This document shows, one piece after another, positions 35,986 to 45,341 of a stretch of DNA of 64,000 bases. The translations under genes were made by a program, and so were the position numbers. The stretch's first letter is position 1, and each line of letters opens with the position of its first letter. This stretch comes from Desulfurobacterium atlanticum (GTDB lineage Bacteria; Aquificota; Aquificia; Desulfurobacteriales; Desulfurobacteriaceae): NCBI RefSeq assembly GCF_900188395.1, contig NZ_FZOB01000001.1:186001-250000 (forward strand), in the 5' to 3' direction. The notes beneath the pieces are model-generated. The model saw nothing but the letters and a program-made list of their open reading frames with translations. It was not told where the DNA came from and did no database searches.

Positions 35986-36016
35986 AAAGGTGGCTTTAAA
36001 GCCGCCTTTTCTTTTT
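35986..36016 (+). terminator. Intrinsic terminator after the hmdII-roadblock unit
   Basis: Stem AAAGGTGGC / GCCGCCTTT (35986-35994 with 36001-36009, one G-T pair), loop TTTAAA, followed by a T-rich tail TCTTTTTG. It begins 25 bases after the roadblock stop. Confidence 0.88.
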
Positions 36017-36035
36017 GCTTTTAAATAAATGAGGC

Positions 36036-37706
<1,671 letters not shown>

Positions 37707-37714
37707 CTGTTTTG

Positions 37715-37740
37715 TCAGGAGGCATACGCCTCCTGATTTA
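37715..37740 (+). terminator. Hairpin terminator after guaB
   Basis: Perfect stem TCAGGAGGC / GCCTCCTGA (37715-37723 with 37728-37736), loop ATAC, starting nine bases after the guaB stop. The tail is only TTTA, so Rho-independent strength may be moderate. Confidence 0.7.
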
Positions 37741-37777
37741 AAGATCTTTCAAAATCCCCTCCAGAATTTTTCAAAAA

Positions 37778-37806
37778 TTAACACTTTCTCTTCTTGTAGA
37801 TAATAT
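37778..37806 (+). promoter_or_regulatory. Candidate promoter of the HMA/P-type ATPase cluster
   Basis: TTAACA (37778-37783), 17-base spacer, TAATAT (37801-37806; four of six to consensus). The -10 lies inside a 12-bp perfect palindrome ATAATATATTAT (37800-37811), which could be an operator. About 45 bases before the first gene. AT-rich DNA makes chance matches likely. Confidence 0.35.
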
Positions 37807-37852
37807 ATTATTAGCATACCCATAATCTATTTTTACTATTCAAGGATTAGCA

Positions 37853-38227
37853 ATGAAAGTAGTTTCCAGAATAGATGGAAGAGTCAGGATAAAGTTTGAC
37901 AATATATATGAGCAGAGAAGCTTTGTTGAAAATATTTCAAAAATTCCAGGTGTGATAAATATAGAAACAGGAAAAGCTTTAAGTGCACTTGTTATTTATA
38001 AATCTGGTTCTCCTGCTGATTTTGTTCTACGGAATTTAAGAGAAACAGAAGAAGTGGTAAGGGCCGGGAGAGAAGAGATTTATCACTATGGAAATGCTGT
38101 TTTAACCCATCCTGCGGCTAAAGCTTTATGGACAGTTATGTGGCTTGGGTTTAGACGAGGAATTGTCACTTTTGCAGCGTGCAGTTTGATTCTTAACAGA
38201 TATATAAAAGCTGCATTTGAAAAATAA
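37853..38227 (+). CDS. HMA-like domain protein without CxxC, with C-terminal membrane segment
   Basis: 124 residues. The first 70 look like a ferredoxin-fold heavy-metal-associated (HMA_2-like) domain, KVVSRIDGRVRIKFDN with FVENISKIPGVINIETGKALSALVIYKSG, but the metal-binding CxxC is absent. A hydrophobic segment follows (about 88-115: AAKALWTVMWLGFRRGIVTFAACSLIL by composition, with internal Arg pairs). It resembles the N-terminus of the P-type ATPase encoded three genes downstream, so it may be a separated domain or regulator. No good ribosome-binding site is seen; AAGGATTAGCA precedes ATG. First gene of the cluster. Confidence 0.75.
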   Translation: MKVVSRIDGRVRIKFDNIYEQRSFVENISKIPGVINIETGKALSALVIYKSGSPADFVLRNLRETEEVVRAGREEIYHYGNAVLTHPAAKALWTVMWLGFRRGIVTFAACSLILNRYIKAAFEK

Positions 38228-38244
38228 AGAGAGGAGGAGAAGTT

Positions 38245-38559
38245 ATGAAAATTTTGGGAGTTGGTGCTGCGGTTGGAGAGTGCATTTCTAAAAACTACTT
38301 TTTAGCAGGTCTTGGAACCGTTGCAGGAGTGGTTATTCTCGGAAGACTTCTAAAAGAAGCAAAGCCTTTGCTTGTTGGTGTAACAAAGGAAGCTATCGCT
38401 TTTCAGCAGTGGCTTAGTTCAAATATTGCTGAAGGGCAGGAAACGTGGGAGGATATTCTTGCCGAGGCAAGACATCAATATAAGCTTGAGATAGAAAAAA
38501 AACTTGAAATTATTCAAAAACAGCAGGAAGTTCTTGAAAAGCTTAAAGCAAGTCTTTAA
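38245..38559 (+). CDS. Small membrane protein with C-terminal coiled coil (DUF5132-like)
   Basis: 104 residues. A Gly-rich hydrophobic segment (about 18-38, FLAGLGTVAGVVILGRLLKE), then an amphipathic part, then a charged coiled coil from about residue 60 (EDILAEARHQYKLEIEKKLEII). The membrane segment followed by EDxxAEAR resembles DUF5132, a family often next to HMA_2-type P-type ATPases; this is recalled, not computed. GAGAGGAGGAG precedes the start. Function unknown; a membrane adaptor or subunit of the ATPase is an inference from context. Confidence 0.72.
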   Translation: MKILGVGAAVGECISKNYFLAGLGTVAGVVILGRLLKEAKPLLVGVTKEAIAFQQWLSSNIAEGQETWEDILAEARHQYKLEIEKKLEIIQKQQEVLEKLKASL

Positions 38560-38586
38560 TAAAAACAAACATCAGGAGGTGTGAAA

Positions 38587-38793
38587 ATGAGCATTTTAAA
38601 TACAGCAGGGAAAGTTGTTTGTTCTGGACCATTTTCTTTCTTTTTAGGTGTAAGTGCAGGCTTAATCGGGCTTTATATGGTGAGCAGAATTGAGGAGCAG
38701 AGAAATCTTGAAAAGATGCAAAAGGAGATAGAAGCTGCAGTTAAAGCACTTGAAGCTCAAAAGAAGGCGGCTGAAGCTACTTCAACAAAATAA
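38587..38793 (+). CDS. Very small membrane protein with coiled-coil tail
   Basis: 68 residues from ATG 38587 (a GTG two codons earlier is too close to the ribosome-binding site CAGGAGG at 38573-38579). One membrane helix with SFFLGVSAGLIGLYMVS, then a charged helix EEQRNLEKMQKEIEAAVKAL. The layout repeats that of the gene before it on a smaller scale. Not recognised as a named family. Spacing (27 bases before, 19 after) and orientation tie it to the ATPase gene. Confidence 0.7.
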   Translation: MSILNTAGKVVCSGPFSFFLGVSAGLIGLYMVSRIEEQRNLEKMQKEIEAAVKALEAQKKAAEATSTK

Positions 38794-38812
38794 ACATTGA
38801 AAAGGTGAAACT

Positions 38813-40963
38813 ATGAGTCTCCCATATAAGATAGTTAGTTTCATGGAAGGCAGGGTTCAGGTTAAGAGTGATTTTTTTAAGTATATATGTGTGTCTGAAG
38901 CTGGAATAGAGAGCTATATAAAATCTCACTTTTCCGGTGTTATTTCTGTAAAAGTAAGCAAAAAAACGGGCAGGGTAACTGTTGAGTATGACCCTGCTTC
39001 CTTTGATGTTAAAGAGTTTTTCTCTTTTCTTGCTTCCATTACTTCTGAGACAGTTCTTGATATGCTTTCTCAGTGGGATAAAGAGAACGGAAATGAGCAA
39101 AAAGAGGAAGAAACAGGTGAAGCAAAAAGAAGGTTTATTTTAAACTCACTTGCAATGGGTTTTGGAATTTCAAAGATTTTGCCTGTAAATGCTCTTTCAG
39201 CTCTTACACTTGCGCTTGCAATGCCAGTTTTTAAGAAAGCGTATAATTCATTAAAGCAAAAGAAAATAGATGTCTATTTCCTTGATTCTTCAGCAATAGC
39301 AATCCTTGCATTAAGAGGAACTCCCATTTCTTCTCTTCTCATGGTGTGGTTGCTTTCCCTTGGTGATTATATAGAAGAAATGACTCAAGGTTCTGCCCAT
39401 AAGGCTATTCGTGAACTTCTTGATTATAAAAACGAGGAAGCCTGGCTTGTCAAAAACGGTAGTGTTGAGAGGGTTTCGGTAGAGCTTTTAGAAAAAGGGG
39501 ATAAAGTAGTTGTTTACACTGGAGAGAAAATTACTGTTGATGGTGTTGTTTATGACGGTGAAGGACTTGTAAATCAGGCTTCATTAACGGGAGAATCCAA
39601 TCCGGTTCTTAAGAAAAAAGGAGATAAAGTTTATGCTGGCACCTATCTTGAGGATGGAAAGCTTTATGTAATAGCTGAGAAGGTTGGAGATGAAACGGCT
39701 CTTGCAAAAATAGTTAAAATCATAGAGGAAAGTGCTGCTGAACAGTTGCAGCTTCAGGAGAAAGCAGAGGAGCTTGCCAATAAAGCTGTTATACCAACGC
39801 TTGCTCTTGCATCTTACGCTGCTTTAACCGGGAACCTTGAAAGGGCAACAGCCACTTTGATAGTTGATTATCATACAGGTATTCATGTTTCAACTCCTGT
39901 TGCGGTTATGTCTCACATGGCATATGCGGCAAAAAAAGGAATTCTCTTTAAAAGTGGTAGATACCTTGAGATAATGCACAAAGTTGATACGGTAGTTTTT
40001 GATAAAACAGGAACTCTAACAATAGGTCATCCTACAATTACAGAAGTTGTTCCATTAAAGGTTTCTGAAGAAGAAGTTATTCAAATAGCTGCCACTCTTG
40101 AGCAGAGATTGACCCATCCTGTTGCTAAAGCGGTTGTGGCTTATGCTAAGGAAAGGAACATTGAACTTTTAAAGAGAGAAGATTCTCAGTATTATATGGG
40201 ACTTGGGGTAGAAGCTAAGATTAATGGTGTTACATATTACATAGGAAGTTCAAAATTTATGGAACATAAGGGAATAAAAATTCCCCAACGTATAATGAAG
40301 TTTAGAGAGGAGATGCACAAAAAAGGAGAATCGGTCCTCTATCTGGTGAGAGGTAAAGTGATAATAGGTCTTATTGGATTTACCGATCCTCCAAGGAAGG
40401 AGTCAAAATTTATTGTTGAAACTCTACATAGCCTTGGTAGAGAAGTTATTCTTTGCACAGGGGATAACGAAGGGGCTGCAGCTTTGATAGCTCAGAAACT
40501 GGGTATTAAGAAGTATTATGCCAGGGCTTTTCCTGATGAGAAAGCAAGAATAATTAAAGAGTTGAAAAAGCAGGGCAAAGTTGTAGCGTTTCTTGGGGAT
40601 GGAGTTAACGATTCTCCTGCTCTTTCGGTTGCTGATGTTGGCATTTCAATCCGTAGCGGTGCTGATATAGCTATAGAAGTTGCAGATGTGGTTATTAATG
40701 AAAGTTTATGTAATCTCGTTGAGGCTTTTGAGATTTCTGACCTTGCGATGAGAAATATAGAGGAAAACTACAAAATAAATACCATAGCAAATACGCTTGG
40801 TCTTGTAGGTTCTTTCTTTGGTTTTATAAATCCTGTTGTTGCAACTCTTATAAATAATGGGACTACTATTCTCATAGGTTTAAATGCTTTAAAACCTATG
40901 TGGAAGAAAAAGTTCAGAGAGATAGAAAAGATAGAGCAGCAGTGTGAAATGTTTGCTTATTAA
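38813..40963 (+). CDS. P1B-like P-type ATPase with CPC motif replaced by Tyr-His-Thr
   Basis: 716 residues. N-terminal HMA-like domain (about 1-85) without CxxC; actuator domain with TGES (259-262); phosphorylation site DKTGT (Asp397); nucleotide-domain HP motif in RLTHPVAKAVV; hinge GDGVNDSP (595-602); membrane pairs before TGES, before DKTGT and at the C-terminus (NTIANTLGLVGSFFGFINPVVATLINNG). All catalytic residues are intact. The transmembrane site that is CPC, SPC or a Cys variant in P1B ATPases reads DYHTGIHVSTP (352-362), so no Cys is available there. Transported ion unknown. Centre of a gene cluster with small membrane proteins. Confidence 0.88.
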   Translation: MSLPYKIVSFMEGRVQVKSDFFKYICVSEAGIESYIKSHFSGVISVKVSKKTGRVTVEYDPASFDVKEFFSFLASITSETVLDMLSQWDKENGNEQKEEETGEAKRRFILNSLAMGFGISKILPVNALSALTLALAMPVFKKAYNSLKQKKIDVYFLDSSAIAILALRGTPISSLLMVWLLSLGDYIEEMTQGSAHKAIRELLDYKNEEAWLVKNGSVERVSVELLEKGDKVVVYTGEKITVDGVVYDGEGLVNQASLTGESNPVLKKKGDKVYAGTYLEDGKLYVIAEKVGDETALAKIVKIIEESAAEQLQLQEKAEELANKAVIPTLALASYAALTGNLERATATLIVDYHTGIHVSTPVAVMSHMAYAAKKGILFKSGRYLEIMHKVDTVVFDKTGTLTIGHPTITEVVPLKVSEEEVIQIAATLEQRLTHPVAKAVVAYAKERNIELLKREDSQYYMGLGVEAKINGVTYYIGSSKFMEHKGIKIPQRIMKFREEMHKKGESVLYLVRGKVIIGLIGFTDPPRKESKFIVETLHSLGREVILCTGDNEGAAALIAQKLGIKKYYARAFPDEKARIIKELKKQGKVVAFLGDGVNDSPALSVADVGISIRSGADIAIEVADVVINESLCNLVEAFEISDLAMRNIEENYKINTIANTLGLVGSFFGFINPVVATLINNGTTILIGLNALKPMWKKKFREIEKIEQQCEMFAY

Positions 40964-40984
40964 ACCGTATAAAAGGGGGAAACT

Positions 40985-41299
40985 ATGGTGAAGAAAAAAG
41001 ATGTAACAGAGAAAGACATAGAAAAAACACTTGAAGAGGTAAAGAAAGAGCTTGAAGAGTTAAGAGAAAAGCTTGGCATGACCGATGATGGGAGTATAGT
41101 AAAACTTCCTGTTGAAGCGGCTAAAAAGATAACAGATAAGGCTGGCGAGATTGTAAAGTCTGCTACAGAGATAGCGGAAAAAGCTCTTAATGTGATAAAG
41201 GCATCTGCTACCGGTGCTGTTGAGGGGGCTAAAGCGGCACTTAAGGAAGATTCTGAAGAGTGCAGGAAGGAAGATAATTCTGAAGAAAATAACAAATGA
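40985..41299 (+). CDS. Amphipathic helical / LEA-like small protein
   Basis: 104 residues. An N-terminal charged coiled coil (DVTEKDIEKTLEEVKKELEEL) is followed by an Ala/Lys/Glu-rich amphipathic stretch with roughly 11-residue periodicity (AAKKITDKAGEIVKSATEIAEKA), like LEA or apolipoprotein-type helices, and an acidic, Ser-rich tail. No membrane helix. It starts 21 bases after the ATPase stop behind AAAAGGGGGAAAC and is the last gene before a terminator. It could lie on the membrane surface; function unknown. Confidence 0.68.
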   Translation: MVKKKDVTEKDIEKTLEEVKKELEELREKLGMTDDGSIVKLPVEAAKKITDKAGEIVKSATEIAEKALNVIKASATGAVEGAKAALKEDSEECRKEDNSEENNK

Positions 41300-41311
41300 A
41301 GATGAGAAAAT

Positions 41312-41338
41312 GGGAAAGGTTATTCCTTTCCCTCTTTT
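41312..41338 (+). terminator. Intrinsic terminator closing the P-type ATPase cluster
   Basis: Perfect eight-pair stem GGGAAAGG / CCTTTCCC (41312-41319 with 41325-41332), loop TTATT, tail TCTTTT. It separates the cluster from the two small genes that follow, although only partial termination may occur because the next start is at 41349. Confidence 0.85.
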
Positions 41339-41348
41339 GAGGTAAATT

Positions 41349-41621
41349 ATGGGTTCAGGTAAAGTTTTTATAAGGACAAGAAGTGGAAGGTATCTTTTGC
41401 TTGAACATATTATAGGTTTTGATGTAGTATCTCAAAAAGTTGAGATAGATGGGAAAAGAGTTCTTGTGTTTGAAGTAATAGCATATCTTCCAGGCAATCT
41501 CCTTCCGGCTGTTCTTGGTATCTATTACAATGAGAAAGATGCCTATGAATGGCTTAATTATCTTGTGGGACAGATTTTGAAAACAGAAAAAGGGATTGTT
41601 TTTATTCCTACGGAGATTTAA
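41349..41621 (+). CDS. Uncharacterised 90-residue protein
   Basis: Not recognised. MGSGKVFIRTRSGRYLLLEHIIGFD then a predicted beta-rich middle and a helix YNEKDAYEWLNYLVGQIL. No membrane segment, signal or Cys. TTGAGGT precedes ATG. Three bases separate its stop from the next gene, so the two are a likely pair. Either a small independent domain or a partner of the SCP2-like protein. Confidence 0.6.
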   Translation: MGSGKVFIRTRSGRYLLLEHIIGFDVVSQKVEIDGKRVLVFEVIAYLPGNLLPAVLGIYYNEKDAYEWLNYLVGQILKTEKGIVFIPTEI

Positions 41622-41623
41622 AG

Positions 41624-41938
41624 ATGTATTCTGAGGTTTATAAAATAGTTGAAAATCTAAATGAAAAGCATAAAAACGATTTTTCTTCTATAGAAAATCC
41701 TGTTCTTATAGAGGTTAAATTTCCAGATGGTGCAGTTAAAACTTTTGAAGTGGGAAAAAGGGGAATAGTTGAAGTTGATGGTGGACAGAAAATAGAGGAT
41801 AAAATAGTTATATCATCCAGAGACCTTATAAGAGTGGAGAGGAACAGAAAGCTTATTCTTCCCTACTTAATGTCTGGAAAAATAAAATTAAGGGGGAATG
41901 TAAAGAGGCTTATGTCGGTTATTCAGGATATTCTTTAA
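41624..41938 (+). CDS. SCP2-like small protein
   Basis: 104 residues. The pattern VLIEVKFPDGAVKTFEV, DKIVISSRDLIRV, PYLMSGKIKLRGNVKRLMSVIQDIL resembles the SCP2 sterol-carrier fold (a hydrophobic ligand-binding domain): beta strands, a short helix, the SGKIKxxG turn and a final helix. Bacterial SCP2-like proteins bind lipids or acyl chains, with many of unknown role. Shorter than usual at the N-terminus. Assignment is by pattern only. Confidence 0.6.
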   Translation: MYSEVYKIVENLNEKHKNDFSSIENPVLIEVKFPDGAVKTFEVGKRGIVEVDGGQKIEDKIVISSRDLIRVERNRKLILPYLMSGKIKLRGNVKRLMSVIQDIL

Positions 41939-42017
41939 AGTTTATTTCTTTACACATTCTTAACAAATTTGCCATTATACTTGTCAAAATACGATAAGGT
42001 TTTTCAGGAGGAGTATA

Positions 42018-42233
42018 ATGGCTAACAGAGCTGTAGAGTTTTCAAAAATAGAAAAAGAACTTGAGATGTTAAAAAGAAAATATTCCAGCTTTATAGAAGA
42101 GAAAGAAAGAAAAAGAAGGAAGATGAGAGATGTTCACTTTTCAGAAGGGGACAGGGAAGTTTTAATTCAGTCAATAGTTATAGGCGGTTTGATTGAGAAT
42201 ATGATAAGCCACTTTGTTGCAAAGGTTTTTTGA
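42018..42233 (+). CDS. Uncharacterised 71-residue helical protein
   Basis: Not recognised. N-terminal basic coiled-coil (KIEKELEMLKRKYSSFIEEKERKRRK) and a hydrophobic C-terminal helix (VLIQSIVIGGLIENMISHFVAKVF) that could be membrane-associated. CAGGAGGAG precedes ATG. It has its own AT-rich upstream gap of 79 bases and lies 77 bases before ppa. The start and good ribosome-binding site make it a likely real gene. Confidence 0.65.
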   Translation: MANRAVEFSKIEKELEMLKRKYSSFIEEKERKRRKMRDVHFSEGDREVLIQSIVIGGLIENMISHFVAKVF

Positions 42234-42310
42234 TAAATTTCTTTTACATTGCCTGCTGGTAATTTCTTTATAAAAGTGTAAAATTTGTCAAAAACTTTAG
42301 GAGGACTGTT

Positions 42311-42832
42311 ATGGATGTGAAGAAAATTCCAGCAGGGAAAAATGTTCCAGAAGATATCTATGCGGTTATAGAAATTCCGCAGGGTTCAAACATCAAATAT
42401 GAAGTTGATAAAGATAGTGGTGCTATTTTTGTTGACAGATTTTTATTCACTCCGATGTTTTACCCTGCAAACTATGGATTTGTTCCAAATACACTTGCAG
42501 ATGATGGTGACCCTATAGATGTTCTTGTTATTTCAAGAGCTCCTGTTGTTCCAGGTTCTGTAATAAGATGCAGGCCTATCGGTGTTCTTATAATGGAAGA
42601 TGAAAGCGGTCAGGATGAGAAAATCCTTGCTGTGCCAGTAGATAAACTTGACTTAAAATACAAAAATGTTAGAGAAATAACTGACCTTCCAGAAGCTGTA
42701 TTAAACGAGATTAAACACTTTTTTGAACATTACAAAGACCTTGAACCTGGTAAATGGGTTAAGCTAAAGGAATATAAAGGTTCTGAAGAAGCTAAAGCTC
42801 TTATTATGAAAGCTGTTGAAAACTGTAAATAA
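42311..42832 (+). CDS. ppa: Inorganic pyrophosphatase (family I, soluble)
   Basis: 173 residues. Hydrolyses pyrophosphate to phosphate with Mg2+. Family I signature [10 protein letters not shown] (the three active-site Asp) and upstream [31 protein letters not shown] with the conserved Lys, Arg and Tyr; later [19 protein letters not shown] and GKWVKL. TTTAGGAGG precedes ATG. A single-gene unit closed by a hairpin. phoU follows, another phosphate gene. Confidence 0.97.
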
Positions 42833-42837
42833 TCTCT

Positions 42838-42858
42838 CCCGCCGTCTGGCGGGTCTTT
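42838..42858 (+). terminator. Short hairpin terminator after ppa
   Basis: Stem CCCGCC / GGCGGG (42838-42843 with 42848-42853), loop GTCT, tail TCTTTC. Six G-C pairs; it starts six bases after the ppa stop. Confidence 0.75.
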
Positions 42859-42989
42859 CATTCTATCTGTATCTGTTTTTATAAAAATCTTTTCAAATTT
42901 CTTCCCAAATTAAGGAAAAATTTATAATTTATACGTTATAGTTATATTTGAACAAATTTTCATAACTTCTTTAAGGAGGAAAGTAACTG

Positions 42990-43691
42990 ATGGTAAATAA
43001 ATACGTTGAAGAACTTGATGAGCTAAAAAGGGATTTTATTGAAATTTCTGACATGGCAAGAAGAATCATCTCTGAAGCTATGGAGGCTCTTATAGATAGG
43101 GATTCTGATAAGGCAAGGGCAACTTACGAGTATGACAAGCTTATAGATTTAAAAGAGCTTGAAATTGAAGAAAAATGTGTGAGAATTTTTGCTCTTTATC
43201 AGCCTGAAGCTTCTGATTTAAGGTTTGTTGTTTCTATTTTAAAAAGCATTGCAGACCTTGAGAGAGTGGGAGACCTTGCAAGAGATATATGTGAAATTGC
43301 TATTTATCTTTCTGAATATCCTCCGATAAAACCTTATGTTGACCTGCCCAGAATGGCTATTATTGTGAAAGAGATGTTAAAAGATGCTATTCTTTCTATT
43401 TTAAAAGGTGATATAGAGATGGCAAAAGAGGTTATTGAAAAGGATGATATTGTTGATAGTTTTTACGATAGAATAACTGATGAGCTTATAGAAGTGGTTG
43501 AAAATGACCCTAAGACAGCACATATAGCTGTAAGACTTATCCTTGTTACCCGTTCTCTTGAAAGGGTTGGAGACCATGCTACAAATATAGCTGAATATGC
43601 TGTTTATATGAAAACAGGAGAGATTATTAAACATCAGAAAGCTTTAAGATGGCTTAGAGAGCAGGAGGAGAAGAAGAATGACAGAGAGTGA
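42990..43691 (+). CDS. phoU: Phosphate-transport regulator PhoU
   Basis: 233 residues, two three-helix bundles. Each has the metal-binding motif region: QPEASDLRFVVSILKSIADLERVGDLARDI (about 72-101) and the second TAHIAVRLILVTRSLERVGDHATNIAEY. PhoU links the Pst phosphate transporter to the PhoR kinase and protects cells from phosphate excess. No pst or phoBR genes are in the window. TTAAGGAGGAAAG precedes ATG. Overlaps the SPFH gene by 14 bases. Confidence 0.95.
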   Translation: MVNKYVEELDELKRDFIEISDMARRIISEAMEALIDRDSDKARATYEYDKLIDLKELEIEEKCVRIFALYQPEASDLRFVVSILKSIADLERVGDLARDICEIAIYLSEYPPIKPYVDLPRMAIIVKEMLKDAILSILKGDIEMAKEVIEKDDIVDSFYDRITDELIEVVENDPKTAHIAVRLILVTRSLERVGDHATNIAEYAVYMKTGEIIKHQKALRWLREQEEKKNDRE

Positions 43692-44523
43692 CCGGTTAAA
43701 GAAAACACCGTTGAAACCGTTTTTCTTTATACCGGTTTTCTTCTTGATAATTATACTTCTGGTAAATTCGTTTATAACGATAGATGCCGGGGAAGTGGGG
43801 GTAAGGCTTCGTCTTGGTAAGATAGATAAAGAGGAGCTTTATCCTGGCTTTCATTTTATAATTCCTGCTGTGGATAAAGTTGTTATCTTCTCAACCAGAG
43901 TTGAGAAGATAGATATGACTCAAGCTCATAGAAATCCCATATCTGCTTTAAGTATGGAAGGATTACCTGCTGTTCTTGATGTTACCATTCTTTACAGAAT
44001 TGTTCCTTCAAAAGCTGATGAGATATATAAAAATTTTGGAACAGATTACGCTCAAAAGCTAATTGTACCGATTGCGAGAGAATCTGTAAGGAATATCGTT
44101 GCTCAGTATAAGATTGAAGATCTTTACTCTTCTAAAAGGGCAGAACTTCAAAAACGTATATTTGATGAGATAAGAACAAGGCTTGAAGGGGATAATATTA
44201 AAGTTACCGATGTTCTTCTGAGAAATGTGAAGCTTCCTGCTAAAGTGGTTGAGAAGATAGAGGAGAAACTTCGTGCAAAAGAGGAAGCAGAAAAGATGAA
44301 ATTTGTTATCCAGAAAGAGAAGCTTGAGGCTGAAAGAAAAATTACAGAGGCTAAAGGTATTGCTGAATCAAATAAAATAATAGCCGATTCTCTTTCTAAC
44401 TCCTATTTGCAGTGGTATTATCTGCAAACTATTAAATCACTTGCTAATGGACCAAACAACACATTTATAATAACGCCTTACGATAAAAATCTTGTTCCGC
44501 TTCTTAACCTTAATAAAAAATGA
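43678..44523 (+). CDS. SPFH/prohibitin family membrane protein
   Basis: 281 residues. A single N-terminal membrane anchor (FFFIPVFFLIIILLVNSFI, about 15-33) and a band-7/SPFH domain: VDAGEVGVRLRLGKI by pattern (here IDAGEVGVRLRLGKI), YPGFHFIIPAVDKVVIF, then a long coiled coil (VVEKIEEKLRAKEEAEKM) and AKGIAESNKIIADSL. Closest in layout to prohibitins and HflC-like proteins that form ring scaffolds around proteases such as FtsH. Starts inside phoU and overlaps the permease gene by ATGA. Confidence 0.9.
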   Translation: MTESDRLKKTPLKPFFFIPVFFLIIILLVNSFITIDAGEVGVRLRLGKIDKEELYPGFHFIIPAVDKVVIFSTRVEKIDMTQAHRNPISALSMEGLPAVLDVTILYRIVPSKADEIYKNFGTDYAQKLIVPIARESVRNIVAQYKIEDLYSSKRAELQKRIFDEIRTRLEGDNIKVTDVLLRNVKLPAKVVEKIEEKLRAKEEAEKMKFVIQKEKLEAERKITEAKGIAESNKIIADSLSNSYLQWYYLQTIKSLANGPNNTFIITPYDKNLVPLLNLNKK

Positions 44524-45341
44524 TAGAAATTGCCAATCCTTTTATATTTTTTAAATACGGCATTTTTCAGAAGGCAATTGTTGCTTCCCTGCTTTCAGGA
44601 ATTTTGTGTTCTATTGTAGGTGTTTATGTTTACTTGAGAAAGATGACATTTATTGGTGCTGGTCTGGCTCATATAGCTTTTGCAGGTATCTCTTTTGGAT
44701 TGCTTGTTGGCTATTTTCCGATGCTGTGGGGGTTTATTTTTACTTTATTGGCGGCGATTATGGTTTGGTTTTTCAGTTATAGAGGAAAACTTACAGCTGA
44801 TTCAACTGTTGGAATTCTGTTTGCTACAAGTATGGGACTTGCTGTTTTCCTTCTCAGTATTTCTGGAAAGTATCGTGCTGAAGCTTTATCTTATCTTTTT
44901 GGAAGTCCTTTAACAGTAAACTGTATTGATATAGTTTTTCTTTTTCTTACCTGTGTTCTGCTTTTAATACTTGTAGTTTACTACTACAGAGATATTTATT
45001 TGACTATTTTTAGTGAAGAGATTGCTAAGGCTTCCGGCATTTCAACGGAAAAAATCACTTTTGTAGCGACATTTTTTATTTCTGTAGCTGTAGTAAGTGC
45101 AATGAAAGCTGTTGGTGCTCTGCTTGTTTTTTCTCTTATTGTTGTGCCGCCGGCAGCTGCGTATGAGATAGCTGAAAGTTTTACTGGAATGATACTTTTT
45201 TCGGTTTTATTTGCTTCTTTTTCTGTTGTTTTAGGGTTGTTCTTTTCTTTCTTTTTTAATGTTCCTTCTGGGTCAATGATTACTTTTGTAGCTTTTGCAG
45301 TATTTGTGTTATCATATATAAAAAAATGGAGAAGCTTATGA
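44520..45341 (+). CDS. ZnuB-type (ABC-3 family) metal ABC transporter permease
   Basis: 273 residues, about eight membrane helices. Typical ABC-3 sequence: FQKAIVASLLSGILCSIVGVYVYLRKMTFIGAGLAHIAFAGIS near the start and VGALLVFSLIVVPPAAAYEIA in the second half, with STVGILFATSMGLAVFLLS between. It would take up zinc or manganese with a binding protein like that at 1077. No ATP-binding partner is next to it. ATGA overlaps on both sides suggest translational coupling with the SPFH and GTPase genes. Confidence 0.9.
   Translation: MIEIANPFIFFKYGIFQKAIVASLLSGILCSIVGVYVYLRKMTFIGAGLAHIAFAGISFGLLVGYFPMLWGFIFTLLAAIMVWFFSYRGKLTADSTVGILFATSMGLAVFLLSISGKYRAEALSYLFGSPLTVNCIDIVFLFLTCVLLLILVVYYYRDIYLTIFSEEIAKASGISTEKITFVATFFISVAVVSAMKAVGALLVFSLIVVPPAAAYEIAESFTGMILFSVLFASFSVVLGLFFSFFFNVPSGSMITFVAFAVFVLSYIKKWRSL

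Follow-up and report, generated by a model that had tools for sequence, protein, structure and literature searches.

A putative cysteine-less sister branch of the SC-type P1B-6/FezB metal pumps in Desulfurobacterium atlanticum and its phylum

P1B-type ATPases are classed, and their metals predicted, by a Cys-bearing motif in M4. FezB was reportedly recognised as a P1B-6 ATPase by Grant et al. in 2022. The P1B-6 group is listed as comprising Fe(II) pumps (PMC7558416); in ferrosomes, FezB is considered a putative transporter of ferrous iron (PMC10979944), and FezA and FezB are both required for ferrosomes in C. difficile (PMC12574912). HN in TM6 is a feature of P1B6 pumps, which have DUF6110 partners, and CtpC serves Zn (PMC9374683). 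A literature search on ferrosomes in the phylum studied here, the Aquificota, and on Cys-less P1B pumps returned nothing relevant.

The window analysed here, a stretch of 64,000 nucleotides from Desulfurobacterium atlanticum, contains a P1B-type ATPase lying in a conserved gene cassette (Table 1). A frame of 716 codons is open across 38813-40963 (+); its product scores 500 bits against the heavy-metal P-type family TIGR01525, whose curated cut-off is 346, contains the Pfam domains E1-E2_ATPase and Hydrolase, and has an HMA_2-like N-terminal domain without CxxC. The catalytic motifs TGES, DKTGT, HP and GDGVND, which a first-pass annotation of this DNA had described as intact, are all found in the translation, and TGES, DKTGT, HP and GDGxND are invariant. 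Searched by fold, the predicted model (mean pLDDT 83.6) comes closest to P1B pumps, with Z 34.5 over 575 residues for 7qbz and Z 33.2 for 7r0g; Foldseek likewise returns P1B pumps. The P1B-1/P1B-2/P1B-4 structures 7qbz, 7r0g and 4umv share the fold (Z 29-35) and the catalytic motifs of the window ATPase, but they have CPC or SPC in M4 and are about 28-30% identical to it. The protein is therefore P1B-type by its catalytic motifs and by a score above the curated family cut-off, whereas the Cys (or CPH) expected at the CPC-equivalent site of M4 is absent, with YHT instead. To judge by the intact motifs the enzyme would be catalytically competent, which forms part of the best explanation.

Table 1. 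Features of the ATPase gene and its cassette (window positions).
Feature	Coordinates	Strand	Basis
HMA_2-like membrane protein, 124 aa, opening gene of the cassette	37853..38227	+	Pfam, profile match, position in relatives
DUF5132/DUF6110-like small membrane protein, 104 aa	38245..38559	+	Pfam, family HMM, hhalign
Single-helix membrane protein with cytoplasmic helix, 70 aa	38581..38793	+	position kept in every intact cassette read
P1B-type ATPase, Cys-less branch (putative), 716 aa	38813..40963	+	TIGR01525; Pfam E1-E2_ATPase and Hydrolase; fold matches
TGES, A domain, residues 259-262	39587..39598	+	translation
M4 transport-site motif D352-Y-H354-T355-G-I-H358-V-S-T-P362	39866..39898	+	translation, alignment
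DKTGT phosphorylation motif, residues 397-401	40001..40015	+	translation
HP, N domain, residues 435-436	40115..40120	+	translation
GDGVND, P domain, residues 595-600	40595..40612	+	translation
M6 motif I-N681-N682-G-T-T, where SC-type P1B-6 has H-N	40850..40867	+	alignment
Acidic helical/coiled-coil protein, 104 aa, 21-base gap 3' of the ATPase	40985..41299	+	homologues in relatives
Conserved cassette protein, 90 aa	41349..41621	+	relatives
Conserved cassette protein, 104 aa	41624..41938	+	relatives
71-aa protein; most relatives have it close to the cassette, often on the opposite strand	42018..42233	+	relatives

Residues 352-362 of this ORF, DYHTGIHVSTP, occupy the site that holds CPC, SPC or SC in other P1B pumps. 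That this stretch is free of Cys, as first read, agrees with the translation and with the positions of the Cys residues: just four are present in the ATPase (26, 548, 633 and 711) and none lies within a predicted membrane helix. In the model M4 consists of two helices, 342-350 and 354-374, with the break at D352-Y353. The alignment of M4 and M6 is gapless against CPC, CPH, SPC, CtpC-like and SC-type pumps; a Cys motif elsewhere in the helix, for which a check had been proposed, does not emerge from it, and a misaligned or displaced motif is thereby ruled out.

The closest known clade in the motif-free tree is that of the SC-type P1B-6/FezB pumps, with which the window ATPase has in common the HMA_2-like N-terminus, Asp352 of M4 and Asn682 of M6; it differs from them in M4, where SC is replaced by HT and the basic K/R by H, and in M6, where HN is replaced by NN. 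The ATPase does not fall within the SC clade, has no SC after its Asp and lacks the His-Asn of M6, all of them marks of an SC-type pump. The change of M6 and the operon were not part of the first-pass annotation. In the alignment D352 is invariant (27/27 SC-type, 12/12 YHT and 4/4 YNT rows), and N682 is retained in all rows of these three types. All YHT (12) and YNT (4) rows have T at position 355, where C is found in 27/27 SC-type rows; at position 681, N in 12/12 YHT and 4/4 YNT rows stands against H in 27/27 SC-type rows. A thiolate and an imidazole have thus been lost together from the P1B-6 site (C355 to T, H681 to N), and in the YHT clade an imidazole is back in M4 as the i, i+4 pair H354/H358. 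Position 354 is S/A in SC-type pumps, H in YHT, N in YNT and G/A elsewhere; position 358 is K/R in SC-type pumps, R in other Cys-less rows and H in YHT only, the Cys-less branch as a whole showing H, R or K. Related members show R at 358 and N, G or A at 354, so the two His are local states of variable or basic positions; the branch is defined by the loss of Cys and not by two His, and a lone new subtype set by His ligands is not supported. It is presumably the M4 and M6 residues that bind the metal.

The tree comprised 67 proteins, from which the M4 and M6 motif columns had been removed. The 26 SC-type rows form one clade (100/99) with the window protein outside; the YHT rows and the YNT rows form one clade each (100/100 in both cases) and join at 100/98, and all the Cys-less rows come together at 98/96, in a group drawn as an open fork. 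SC-type and Cys-less rows are set apart from all the Cys-bearing CPC, CPH, SPC and CtpC-like rows at 100/99. In a 36-row subset tree the Cys-less rows group once more (support 89), and in an AU test on the 36 rows a YHT, YNT and SC clade, apart from the other Cys-less rows, is not rejected (p 0.15). On these trees the P1B-6 neighbourhood of the Cys-less pumps is firm and a single loss of Cys likely, and within the P1B-6 group the window ATPase would stand for a branch without Cys, whose sister is the SC-type P1B-6/FezB clade. The tree suggested by the first-pass annotation has thus yielded a distinct Cys-less clade, but one that is sister to SC-type pumps and not isolated. At one locus (L219) an ATPase with the SC-type M4 DYSCGVR and HN in M6 groups with the CPC-bearing CtpC-like pumps, so that motif and clade sometimes disagree.

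Among the matches listed, the top ones from other phyla read D-[FY]-S-C-A-x-K in M4 and H-N in M6. The scan of genome contigs for relatives took in at least 80 loci; the Pseudomonadota and the phylum of locus L035 were sampled. Other Cys-less relatives belong to the same main-tree clade (98/96), are about 29-35% identical to the window ATPase and differ from it at residues 353-358: Gloeothece (L136) has DFGTGIR in M4 and INNGS in M6, with DUF5132 and HMA2-domain genes adjoining; Deinococcus (L172) has DFASGIR and ISHGT; Methylobacterium (L173) has DLGTGIR and FNNAS; in Pseudomonadota (L181-L188) M4 is GFGYNMR or GHVAQNIR. The annotated HMA2-domain protein that adjoins the cyanobacterial ATPase (L136:6831-8118) resembles the N-terminal part of an ATPase. 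The GHVAQNIR pumps, with SQSG in M6, are found in small Pseudomonadota genomes (L186-L188 and G485:C45), and three tandem copies of this group lie on one contig.

A close homologue (E <= 1e-100) of the window ATPase is present in 28 of the 136 genomes of the phylum that were searched, and the motif was read in all of them: YHT in 22, the window genome included, DYNTNLR in five, and a decayed copy in one. These 22 intact genomes, one of them with F in place of Y at 353, answer the earlier proposal to look for other YHT sequences. The YHT relatives are 49-70% identical to the window protein, and H354, T355 and H358 are kept in every intact copy found. At position 354 the codons are CAT (13) and CAC (11), in counts that take in one record twice as well as the decayed copy, and all four Thr codons are used at 355; synonymous change at conserved residues indicates that the YHT motif is under selection. 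The sole change of H358 (to Tyr) is in the decayed copy, which has eight in-frame stops; at L133/L159 the decayed ATPase lies inside an otherwise recognisable cassette. An SC-type query against the same 136 genomes meets nothing but YHT/YNT genes at E <= 1e-86 (26 genomes), and thus YHT/YNT pumps fill the P1B-6 slot in the phylum. Within its own taxonomic family the gene was found in the window genome only, among the genomes searched, and the nearest relative (70%) belongs to another family, which suggests horizontal transfer of the ATPase gene. Viral contigs searched with the window ATPase gave no relative. A second P1B-type ATPase was not found in the window genome, where the other P-type ATPases amount to one 847-aa non-P1B pump on a separate contig.

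The genes starting at 37853, 38245, 38581, 38813 and 40985 are separated by 17-21 bases and their order is kept in relatives, where the five genes are followed by homologues of those at 41349 and 41624 and often of that at 42018. The first protein matches Pfam HMA_2 below cut-off (E 0.005), and its family gives a profile match to the N-terminal domains of the ATPases (probability 94.6%); a FezC-like haem cytochrome was considered for it and set aside, its C-terminal His not being conserved. The second matches DUF5132 (E 0.0016), and an orthologue of this protein matches DUF6110 (E 0.023), both below the Pfam cut-off. The HMM of its family matches a true DUF6110 neighbour at L104 (7e-7) and another at L039 (1e-3); hhalign gives E 1.5e-4 with a probability of 51%. 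A remote homology of these two partners to HMA_2 and DUF6110/DUF5132, the companions of P1B-6 pumps, is thus plausible. CtpC-type (P1B6-like) pumps with PacL/DUF1490 also have a small single-helix membrane partner and belong to the M6 HN-type motif family (PMC9374683; L177), but they keep CPC in M4 and branch with Cys-bearing pumps; the CtpC-like reference is one clear case, obtained by searching 149 genomes from another phylum for DUF1490. No DUF1490 match was found among the cassette proteins, and a CtpC-type assignment is ruled out by the absence of CPC from the window ATPase and by the tree. A search against Rfam found no RNA element in 36000-43000.

Among the loci listed, FeoB adjoins 15 of the 68 SC-type loci and 0 of the 11 others. 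The window cassette has no Feo, Fur or ferritin gene next to it, so that the link to iron is by kinship only; FeoB, one ferritin-like gene and two CDF genes are found elsewhere in the genome. On the 3' side of the cassette are genes for an inorganic pyrophosphatase and PhoU (42311-43691), then for a Band_7 protein and an ABC-3 family metal permease (43678-45341), the permease 3.5 kb downstream; a ZnuA-type binding protein is encoded at 1077-1928, far from this permease. Pst-PhoU genes lie 5' of the cassette at L151/L160 and 5' of the SC-type gene at L104; in so few cases the proximity of phosphate genes is suggestive only.

The best explanation, which we hold to be about as probable as all others combined, is that the window ATPase belongs to a Cys-less sister branch of P1B-6/FezB that handles Fe(II) or a similar ion together with small membrane partners. 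The ATPase would run the usual phosphoenzyme cycle; its M4/M6 site, without a thiolate, would hold a harder divalent cation by D352, H354/T355/H358 and N681/N682, with Fe(II) as the likeliest cargo on the evidence of kinship; together with the HMA_2-like and DUF6110-like small membrane partners it would move the metal out of the cytoplasm, whether across the membrane or into a ferrosome-like compartment inside the cell. In favour of this explanation are the conservation of the motif, the tree, the shared D352 and N682, the joint replacement of C355 and H681, the filling of the P1B-6 slot, the partners, the iron-linked SC-type kin and the CDF gene found within the cassette of one YHT and two YNT genomes. 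Against it, both diagnostic P1B-6 motifs are changed, so the cargo may have changed too; the Pfam matches of the companions are weak, no iron genes stand beside the cassette and the AU test gives p 0.15; the ABC-3 permease could equally hint at Zn or Mn.

A detoxification exporter of Zn(II), Mn(II), Co(II) or Ni(II) placed in the cell membrane and uninvolved in iron storage, with H354/H358, one turn apart, as a borderline-metal site, would fit the Zn service of the related CtpC (PMC9374683), the permease, and a CDF cation-efflux gene (PF01545) that lies 3' of the ATPase in the cassettes of three relatives (L147, YHT; L156/L157, YNT), these genes being in keeping with Zn/Mn handling; a general export role is also left open by the fact that this is the sole P1B-type ATPase found in the genome. 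However, CtpC-type pumps retain CPC and are outside the joint SC and Cys-less clade, and the YNT sister clade is without both His, which are hence dispensable across the group; we judge this alternative unlikely.

Improbable in our estimation is a pump whose cargo is no transition metal, or an ATPase with a vestigial transport site that serves in regulation or assembly: with the loss of Cys and of the M6 His the known ligands are gone, and the Cys-less branch varies at position 354 (H, N, G or A) and at position 358 (H, R or K), but no YHT or YNT row departs from D352, T355, N681 and N682 and the phosphorylation motifs are unbroken, which points away from a dead site. Chance drift, a sequencing error or a pseudogene, to which the presence of the gene in one genome only of its own family in the set might point, has next to no probability and is refuted by a motif kept in 22 genomes with synonymous change and by the open frame of 716 codons.

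The first-pass annotation had proposed a new P1B subtype or a pump for a harder ion. Returning to our preferred reading of a Cys-less sister branch of P1B-6/FezB, part of that proposal stands, in that the protein is P1B-type, belongs to a conserved and distinct Cys-less branch and could reasonably use harder ligands; a lone subtype set by His does not, given the sister position to SC-type pumps and the variation at 354 and 358. A wider claim, possible but doubtful, is that of a Cys-free subtype whose Asp/Thr/His/Asn site takes Fe(II) or another hard divalent metal and which would build ferrosome-like compartments and fully replace SC-type P1B-6 in this deep-branching, mostly heat-loving phylum. 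If a compartment is indeed loaded, ferrosome-like storage would be extended to a phylum from which we found no report of it. The whole conserved Cys-less branch would constitute an exception, with a site of its own, to the rule by which P1B pumps are read from a Cys motif, and its placement beside FezB would offer a natural test of how selectivity for ferrous iron arises.
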